From Clostridia bacterium (GTDB lineage: Bacteria > Bacillota > Clostridia > UBA1381): a stretch of DNA of 41,115 nucleotides. The stretch is from positions 1 through 41,115 of the forward strand of contig JAFUJN010000181.1 in the NCBI GenBank assembly GCA_017468095.1. The letters run 5' to 3'. The position numbers and the translations under genes are program-made. Under the pieces are notes generated by a model that had not been told where the DNA came from, did not search any database, and worked only from the letters and a program-made list of their open reading frames with translations. Of the stretch, positions 37,488 through 38,924 are shown one piece after another. Each line of letters opens with the position of its first letter. Position 1 is the first letter of the stretch.

Positions 37488-37946
37488 TCAGTAAGCACTA
37501 TAAAGCCAGATAAAAAATGTAAGATAGGTTGCAAAAGCCGTCCAGATAAGATAGGGGATTTGAAGATATGCGGCCAGTTTGTTAATCCTGTAAAATTCAA
37601 TAATCATAAGCACAACAAGGACTAAAAGCAGTACAATCCAGATAAATGCAAAAAGGTAAGCCTGCATATTAAAGAAGATTATCGGCCAAAGGAAATTGAC
37701 AAAAAGCTGTAGCCAATAGATGAACGGAATCTGACCTTCGGTTTTGTATACAAGTCCTGCGCTTATCCCCATAAGAATATATAGGATGGACCACACGATA
37801 GGGAAAACAACCGGCGGCGGAGCAAGTGGTGGTTTTATAACTTCGCCATATACATTAAAGCTTCCCCTTGTAATAAGACCGGCAAGGCCACCCACTAAAA
37901 GCGCAATCAGAATTTGCACAATGTACGGTTTATATTTTTTTAGCAT
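37488..37946 (-). CDS. tspO: TspO/MBR family protein
   Basis: 152 aa from the ATG at 37946, set by GAGGTGAAG; the longer reading to 38027 lacks a ribosome site. Five hydrophobic helices; the family signature KPPLAPPPVVFPIVWSILYI follows the first helix, and FVNFLWPIIFF is the conserved fourth-helix block. TspO proteins bind porphyrins and are linked to stress and tetrapyrrole handling. Encoded alone with its own terminator. Confidence 0.92.
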   Translation of the reverse strand: MLKKYKPYIVQILIALLVGGLAGLITRGSFNVYGEVIKPPLAPPPVVFPIVWSILYILMGISAGLVYKTEGQIPFIYWLQLFVNFLWPIIFFNMQAYLFAFIWIVLLLVLVVLMIIEFYRINKLAAYLQIPYLIWTAFATYLTFFIWLYSAY

Positions 37947-38085
37947 AAACTTCACCTCATACAATATTATATGAAGCGTATGGGTCATATTATTCAAAAA
38001 AAGTGGTTTTGAACGGAAAAAGTGCACATATTGTGTAAAATTTAAAAAAAATTTAAAAAAACCACAATATTTTATAAGAAAAGGC

Positions 38086-38114
38086 TTGTAATCTATGTAA
38101 AGATGTGTTATAAT
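38086..38114 (+). promoter_or_regulatory. Orphan promoter for a putative small RNA
   Basis: TTGTAA (38086-38091), exactly 17 nt, TATAAT (38109-38114), with an extended -10 TGT immediately before it. No plus-strand ORF with a ribosome site follows; a hairpin and terminator do. The flanking genes are both on the minus strand. Confidence 0.75.
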
Positions 38115-38119
38115 AGAAG

Positions 38120-38196
38120 GGTAGAAGGAAGTTACTTTCTACCCTTTTATCCTATACATATCAAGCTAAAAAGCATCGTGCCGCGGTGCTTTTTTT
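38120..38196 (+). ncRNA. Candidate small RNA of about 75-80 nt
   Basis: Starts about 6 nt after the orphan -10 box. Its 5' part folds into a stem whose arms are AAGGGTAGAA (38117-38126) and TTCTACCCTT (38137-38146); the exact start decides whether the whole 5' arm is included. About 20 unpaired nt follow (TATCCTATACATATCAAGC), then a terminator stem AAAAAGCA/TGCTTTTT (38168-38194) closed by T. No ribosome site or ORF. I do not recognise it as 6S, SRP, tmRNA or RNase P. It lies between tspO and greA, both transcribed the other way. Confidence 0.6.
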
Positions 38197-38204
38197 CTGC
38201 CAAG

Positions 38205-38228
38205 AAAAAACGCCTGTAGGCGTTTTTT
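38205..38228. terminator. Bidirectional terminator, likely of greA
   Basis: Perfect 10-bp stem AAAAAACGCC/GGCGTTTTTT with the loop TGTA. On the minus strand it ends the greA transcript; on the plus strand it backs up the small-RNA terminator. Confidence 0.85.
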
Positions 38229-38323: not shown

Positions 38324-38836
38324 TTATTTCTCGTATTTGTAAATGTTTTTGATTACAAAATCAATAGTGCAAGCAGGTGTTTCGCAGGAAACAGTTTCGC
38401 CTGCCTTATGTCCCAAAAGAGCCTTTCCAACAGGAGAGCTTACTGAAAGAAGAATGTCATCCATATCCTTGTTCAAAACTGCATAGATTTCAATTTCATC
38501 AGGACTTACAACTGCGTAAGTCTCGATTTCGTCTTCGCCAACTTCCTGAATTTCGATTGTGTTGCCAAGGCAAACAGTGTTTTCGATAATTTCGTCATCG
38601 CCAACAACTCTTGTGTACTTCATCATGTTCATAAGCTGGTTGATTTTTGACTCAACTTCTGCCTGCTCATTTTTTGCTTCGTCATATTCGGCATTTTCTG
38701 ACAAGTCGCCGAATCCGCGTGCCACCTTAATCTTTTCTGTAATTTCGCTTCTTTTCTCGGTTTTTAAGTAATCAAGTCCTGACTTTAATGCATCCATACC
38801 AATACTTGTTAAAACAATTTCTTTGGTTTCTGCCAT
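38324..38836 (-). CDS. greA: Transcription elongation factor GreA
   Basis: 170 aa, slightly longer than the usual ~158. The N-terminal coiled coil carries the acidic tip motif GDLSENAEYDEAK (43-55) that reaches into the RNA polymerase channel to stimulate transcript cleavage. The C-terminal FKBP-like domain is recognisable at VSSPVGKALLGHKAGETVS. The family's ISPxSPLGxAL block reads LLSVSSPVGKALL. Transcribed alone from a consensus promoter. Confidence 0.93.
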   Translation of the reverse strand: MAETKEIVLTSIGMDALKSGLDYLKTEKRSEITEKIKVARGFGDLSENAEYDEAKNEQAEVESKINQLMNMMKYTRVVGDDEIIENTVCLGNTIEIQEVGEDEIETYAVVSPDEIEIYAVLNKDMDDILLSVSSPVGKALLGHKAGETVSCETPACTIDFVIKNIYKYEK

Positions 38837-38895: not shown

Positions 38896-38924
38896 ATTAT
38901 AATCAAAGATTGGCCCGTTGTCAA
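38896..38924 (-). promoter_or_regulatory. Promoter of greA with overlapping palindrome
   Basis: Minus strand: TTGACA (38924-38919), 17-nt spacer, TATAAT (38901-38896): a consensus promoter. An inverted repeat AAAGATTG (38905-38912) / CAATCTTT (38922-38929) with a 9-nt centre overlaps the -35 box and spacer, the right position for a repressor. Confidence 0.82.

Follow-up and report, generated by a model that had tools for sequence, protein, structure and literature searches.

The 41,115-nt stretch of DNA analysed here (the window; contig JAFUJN010000181.1 of the Clostridia bacterium assembly GCA_017468095.1) gives strong sequence indications of a small RNA (sRNA) gene. The best reading is a stand-alone gene, since promoter, hairpin pairing and terminator are kept in relatives. 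We propose, with a probability of roughly 0.75, that the product is a trans-acting base-pairing sRNA that blocks Shine-Dalgarno sites and that is titrated in sister genera by RNAs carrying its complement. The family to which the window belongs is probably Monoglobaceae, judging by the names Ornithomonoglobus and Avimonoglobus among its members.

An initial annotation of the window had described a compact promoter-hairpin-terminator unit on the strand opposite to both of its neighbours. The extended −10 promoter (TTGTAA-17-TGTTATAAT, 38086–38114, + strand) was confirmed by a promoter scan, which found TG before the −10, 10 of 12 matches and a spacer of 17, and its geometry is kept in all 49 family loci. 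The orientation is likewise correct, with the sRNA on the + strand and both tspO and greA on the − strand, and the Rho-independent terminator is borne out by the RNA fold and by 26 aligned relatives. Two of the claims stand in part. A hairpin close to the 10 bp described is present in the window (9–10 bp), but the family-wide stem comprises only ~6 bp, so that the pairs beyond it are local to the window; and the setting between tspO and greA is true of the window but is not part of the sRNA gene, as neighbours vary among relatives. The mapped features are collected in Table 1.

Table 1. Features of the sRNA locus and its surroundings, in window coordinates
Feature	Position	Strand	Basis and remarks
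A/T-rich upstream stretch ACAATATTTTATAAGAAAAG	38064–38083	+	Alignment; similar in most same-genus loci and g6
−35 hexamer TTGTAA	38086–38091	+	Promoter scan; TTG kept in 49/49 accepted family loci
Extended −10 TGTTATAAT, 17-nt spacer	38106–38114	+	TGnTATAAT and spacer 17 in 49/49
Predicted small RNA, ~77 nt, ends predicted	38120–38196	+	Fold; accepted in 49/70 family genomes
5' hairpin, arms 38120–38128 and 38135–38143	38120–38143	+	Fold, alignment
Family-wide stem core GUAGAA with UUCUAC	38121–38126 with 38137–38142	+	Fold, family loci
Conserved core/seed ACCCUUUUAUCCUAUAC, mostly unpaired; complement Shine-Dalgarno-like	38141–38157	+	Fold, family loci
Linker AUAUCAAGC	38158–38166	+	Common to 4/7 aligned same-genus sequences
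Intrinsic terminator, 12-bp stem and T7 tail	38168–38196	+	Fold; two-sided changes in 10/12 pairs, 26 relatives
Palindromic terminator-like repeat, separate from sRNA; probably the terminator of greA (− strand)	38205–38228		Sequence, self-match
Neighbour tspO (TspO/MBR, PF03073), outside sRNA	37488–37946	−	Pfam
Neighbour greA (PF03449/PF01272), outside sRNA	38324–38836	−	Pfam

Promoter-like sites as a class were not above chance in the scanned window (7 found versus 9.6 expected), and the locus is judged to be above chance because the promoter and the unit are conserved in 49 of 49 loci, not on account of the promoter scan. The generic terminator scan of the window did not list the terminator at 38168–38196, probably because its T run pairs within the stem. 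Comparison of the window with Rfam at the cut-offs returned only 5S rRNA and two tRNAs, leaving the sRNA locus without a family; the statement that the RNA matches no known family therefore holds at those cut-offs, next to a sub-threshold resemblance to FsrA that is taken up below. Upstream of greA, the − strand carries a perfect 12/12 σ70-type promoter (TTGACA-17-TATAAT, 38896–38924).

Searches within the genus at the DNA level gave long matches in six of eight other genomes and none in G001 (79% complete) and G002 (74% complete). The same-genus alignment shows one conserved block that takes in the promoter, the stem, the linker and the terminator stem. Some conservation extends further upstream, where the stretch ACAATATTTTATAAGAAAAG may be UP-element-like or an operator. 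The sRNA is adjacent to tspO in five of seven same-genus loci; greA lies on a separate contig in the draft assemblies of G004, G006 and G007; and the neighbours in other genera are different genes. Because they change between genera, we regard the sRNA as its own gene.

A covariance model (R1) built from seven sequences was searched against 70 family genomes and matched in 49 of them at E 0.01. Dropping G001 (without the core) and G038 (sibling core) and adding G012 and G013 by pattern yielded an accepted set of 49 loci in 49 of 70 genomes, spanning 11 of 17 genera. Left out of the counts were R1 matches lacking the core (L119, L120, L123–L126), rows with the sibling core (L116, L122 and L121, which also lacks the −10) and a minus-strand match overlying the window's own sRNA. 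TTG at −35, the 17-nt spacer and TGnTATAAT occur in every accepted locus, while the core ACCCUUUUAUCCUA is identical in 41 of the 49 and ACCCTTTTATCCTA is exact in 41 of the 49. Among 25 other genomes of the order, four weak R1 matches were obtained, none with the core. The core pattern was present in 33 stretches of a named genome collection, four of the six examined looking genuine; the stretches L138 and L161 have no promoter and look like chance. Record L147 (Lachnospiraceae bacterium MD329) carries the sRNA. Viral contigs gave no match to this pattern.

Related and neighbouring elements were also seen. A sibling RNA, in which a different stem stands ahead of TACCCTTTTATCATATATACCACCA and is followed by a hairpin, occurs in four genomes including the window's own (L007, G000:C68, near locus base 1501; L121/L221; L116; L122). 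On the − strand of L019 (G004:C18), near locus base 1501, lies CCCTTTATCCAATACATATCAAGC, a partial relative whose long hairpin is different and which has a terminator-like hairpin, and a lysine riboswitch (L010, 2169–2339, 96.2 bits) is found downstream of the sRNA in G006.

The 77-nt RNA is predicted to fold into two hairpins separated by an open linker. The fold of 38120–38196 has an energy of −24.5 kcal/mol (z −4.58), and none of 200 shuffles was as stable. Compensatory changes were sought in the 26 short-hairpin members of the 49 loci, using an alignment that was fitted to the model and so leans towards structure: 90.7% of its cells pair, versus 43–59% in slid versions, and two-sided changes occur in 11 pairs against a shuffle mean of 5.2. 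Ten of these 11 pairs belong to the terminator helix, where they make up 10 of 12 pairs. The 5' stem, counted with the best-pairing offset chosen for the 5' arm, is GUAGAA/UUCUAC in 28 of the 49 loci and GUGAAA/UUUCAC in four, amounting to two double changes; variants in the remaining 17 retain 5 or 6 of 6 pairs in 16 cases and 4 in one. The initial annotation had staked its proposal on conservation of the promoter and of the hairpin pairing in close relatives, and both are kept, with compensatory changes. The apical part of the hairpin is enlarged in several genera, often through an extra hairpin. A peptide-coding reading was rejected: among 51 predicted transcripts (the 49 accepted loci and two siblings), 50 hold no closed ORF of at least 8 codons having both a start and a Shine-Dalgarno sequence, and one holds 10 codons.

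Between the hairpins lies the conserved, mostly unpaired, C-rich core characteristic of C-rich base-pairing sRNAs; its ensemble probability of being unpaired has a median of 0.88, though it reaches 0.8 or more in only 29 of 49 loci. These features suggest a model in which RNA polymerase would start a few bases past the extended −10 and the RNA would form a protective hairpin at its 5' end and a terminator hairpin, with ACCCUUUUAUCCUAUAC remaining open. The C-rich core would then pair with AGGAUAAAAGG-type sequence at or near Shine-Dalgarno sites and block translation of the targets. Sister genera would in addition make perfect-complement RNAs, either as tiny transcripts or as mRNA 3' ends before a terminator, that may titrate the sRNA.

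Potential partners were searched for in the 70 genomes, counting sites outside the sRNA genes and using the reversed pattern as the control. The 13-mer complement AGGATAAAAGGGT was found at 29 sites versus 3 for the control, ATAGGATAAAAGG at 42 versus 5, and TATAAT-N5-35-AGGATAAAAGG in 24 rows (23 sites) versus 0. The 5'-UTR part of this excess is inflated because the complement resembles a Shine-Dalgarno sequence and the reversed control does not, so that part of it arises without sRNA pairing. The first two patterns united give 62 sites, and 74 with the third. The 62 sites fall into 32 context groups. In seven of these an intrinsic terminator lies no more than 40 nt to the 3' side; at random positions this holds for 93 of 6000 (binomial P 5e-7). 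Counted per site, 17 of 62 have a terminator within 30 nt versus 56 of 4000 random positions. Sites within one genus are partly a single inherited site. Four kinds of site were distinguished: promoter-site-hairpin units, mRNA 3' ends right before terminators, sites over or near Shine-Dalgarno sequences, and sites in coding sequence, as in an M56-peptidase ORF. In G023 and G026 one gene is followed by two 3'-end sites in tandem.

This family-wide excess does not extend to the genus of the window. Its nine genomes show no enrichment of the 10-mer GGATAAAAGG, with 38 non-sRNA sites and 34 for the control, and no sponge was found there. Sites exist in that genus nonetheless, at a 3' end before a hairpin in G005 (L325) and right before a conserved start, which we take to be that of pth, in G000 and G004 (L329, L335). 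At L328 (G000:C66:11033), in the window's genome, GGATAAAAGGG comes within ~9 bases after a consensus promoter (TTGACA-17-TATAAT), making this locus a leader or sponge candidate. The g6 core reads CCCUCAGAUCC, and its complement AGGATCTGAGGG is confined to the sRNA itself in four of four genomes, so that no co-varied partner is detectable in g6. Sites also occur in G035 and G037, whose assemblies yielded no sRNA.

Stand-alone promoter-site-hairpin units occur in genera g4, g7 and g10. Motif searches located nine, in six g7 genomes (G025, G027, G028, G030, G033, G036) and three g10 genomes (G046, G052 and G053, the last upstream of mnmA); with four found by synteny, all have promoter, site and hairpin, the arrangement expected of a RosA-like sponge. 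A strict terminator rule (within 40 nt) was passed by five of the nine motif-found units; in those of G027, G030, G033 and G036, which fail it, the hairpin is followed only by TTTTCCC. The sRNA-sponge duplex energy, computed with crudely cut transcript ends, lay below the mean of mono-shuffled sponges in all nine. Only the units of G028, G030 and G036 were strictly lower than the best of 200 shuffles, and those of G046 and G053 equalled it. As only three of nine beat all 200 shuffles, duplex energy alone proves little. By their sequence and layout, the complement-bearing units of sister genera are candidate sponges comparable to the Bacillus RNA RosA.

The g7 unit follows a desulfoferrodoxin gene (PF01880, one representative), which allowed a check independent of the motif. 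The desulfoferrodoxin protein was searched in 25 genomes, 22 of which gave a match (at least 26 matches in all). For the best 20 of these matches, each from a different genome, the sequence 3' of the stop was examined over at most 260 bases, and a stop could be located in 19. Ten of the 19 genes are followed by a promoter and a GATAAA(A0-2)GGG site, each having the site or a close variant, and no such unit lies in the stretch examined 3' of the other nine. The ten comprise nine of the 15 g7 genomes examined and G016 (g4); six were already known, and four (G016, G022, G023, G026) had been missed by the motif searches and constitute new evidence. All ten units carry tandem repeats, (CTTACA or TTAACA)-N5-TTTAC, 53–54 bp before the −10, a pattern drawn up post hoc whose background over all fetched loci is 0.033 per kb. 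These repeats resemble Pho boxes. Eight loci passed the family cut-off for pstS, and six of the seven pstS promoters examined carry TTAACATACAATTAAC or a close form (the exception being G030). The repeats may be Pho boxes, and the sponge promoter may be bound by an OmpR-type regulator.

Pfam analysis of seven site-bearing gene products identified SLH, NlpC/P60, copper amine oxidase N-terminal and YARHG domains, which make several of the products envelope-type, with one product lacking a family; a sigma factor gene also bears a site in G006. In the YARHG-domain gene, the site lies over the Shine-Dalgarno sequence in G016 and at the 3' end in G032, as it does in the YARHG-type copy of G037. At 16 loci the sRNA follows VTC-domain and DUF4956 genes (Pfam, one representative per cluster), and GGATAAAAG precedes the VTC start in only six of them. 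These associations offer leads to an envelope or phosphate role. A more elaborate version of the proposal, to which we give somewhat less than even odds, is that the sRNA represents a new Monoglobaceae sRNA family within a titration network, in which a sponge gene and terminator-proximal decoys in envelope mRNAs would free the targets under specific stress. The sponge gene would be the one after desulfoferrodoxin in g7 and one g4 genome, with its Pho-box-like repeats, and lineages would differ in relying on a stand-alone sponge or on mRNA 3' ends.

The occurrence of several sites in the 3' ends of SLH, NlpC/P60, copper amine oxidase N-terminal and YARHG genes would also fit another relation, in which these mRNAs are targets whose decay the sRNA alters and the tiny units are of a different nature. 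We consider this improbable, given that the stand-alone units of g4, g7 and g10 have no visible gene product, vary in sequence except for the promoter region and the site, and retain the hairpin end.

Homology with FsrA, a Fur-controlled iron-sparing sRNA of Bacillus with the same hairpin-linker-terminator layout, is considerably less probable. The FsrA model (RF02273) aligns to the window sRNA over its full length at 35.0 bits (E 5.6e-6 for 141 bases), with a GAAG-UAC loop and AUCAAG in common, and the two RNAs are alike in size, 5' hairpin, open C-containing linker and terminator. The score falls far short of the 80-bit gathering cut-off, however, and the resemblance is narrow, with sub-threshold matches in three of seven same-genus loci (35.4 bits in G004, 31.4 bits in G008) and none in ten loci tested from other genera. 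The C-rich core is different, and the 49 sRNA promoters show no excess of Fur boxes (best scores average 8.92 of 14, against 9.14 in shuffles). Membership in the FsrA family was rejected on the grounds of score, breadth and promoter.

Two further explanations have very little left in their favour. A cis element, either an attenuator or leader of the gene downstream or a terminator region in which a promoter arose by chance, would account for the UUUU after the first hairpin, which looks like a weak terminator, but the downstream gene varies and is often on the opposite strand, and the core beyond the U run ranks with the best-conserved segments; the leader or attenuator form was rejected on the differing genomic context. 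A protein-binding decoy acting without base pairing, for instance on a CsrA-like protein through a hairpin GGA, would suit the GG(A/G) of the seven aligned same-genus hairpins but is just as hard to uphold, for in many other genera the loop has no GGA (AGAAAUUAC) and the linker is retained.

If the trans-acting reading is true, a whole order of gut bacteria, for which there is none at Rfam cut-offs, would gain a well-supported trans-acting sRNA family, together with a natural pair of sRNA and sponge in which the sponge can be traced across genera. Full-text searches found no Monoglobus small RNA or sRNA; among the matches listed in the structured-RNA literature, the order is not named in the title or the start of the abstract; and on RNA sponges with C-rich Firmicutes sRNAs, the titles found concern RoxS or FsrA. 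A second, independent and very compact sponge would allow a comparative test of sponge evolution.

Besides FsrA, the known systems closest to this proposal are RoxS/RsaE and RosA. RoxS has CCCC runs, unlike the Monoglobaceae core, which has CCCUUUU, and Rfam covariance searches of the window, same-genus and other-genus loci listed no RoxS/RsaE match. Rex sites in the 49 sRNA promoters have a mean best of 9.33 of 14 versus 8.65 shuffled, with a maximum of 11. RoxS/RsaE of Bacillus and Staphylococcus resemble the sRNA in having a C-rich region that can mask Shine-Dalgarno sites (PMC8216469). RosA, a sponge of both RoxS and FsrA in Bacillus, is ~225 nt long with two G-rich regions; when reported in 2021 it was called the first RNA sponge to be confirmed in a Gram-positive bacterium (PMC8216469). 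The sister-genus units differ in their length of ~65–75 nt by crude ends, in their single site and in their distribution, as such units are seen in sister genera and not in the window's genus; control by CcpA is a feature of RosA. What the units would share with RosA is the principle itself, an RNA with its own transcription unit in which a G-rich stretch is complementary to a C-rich sRNA.
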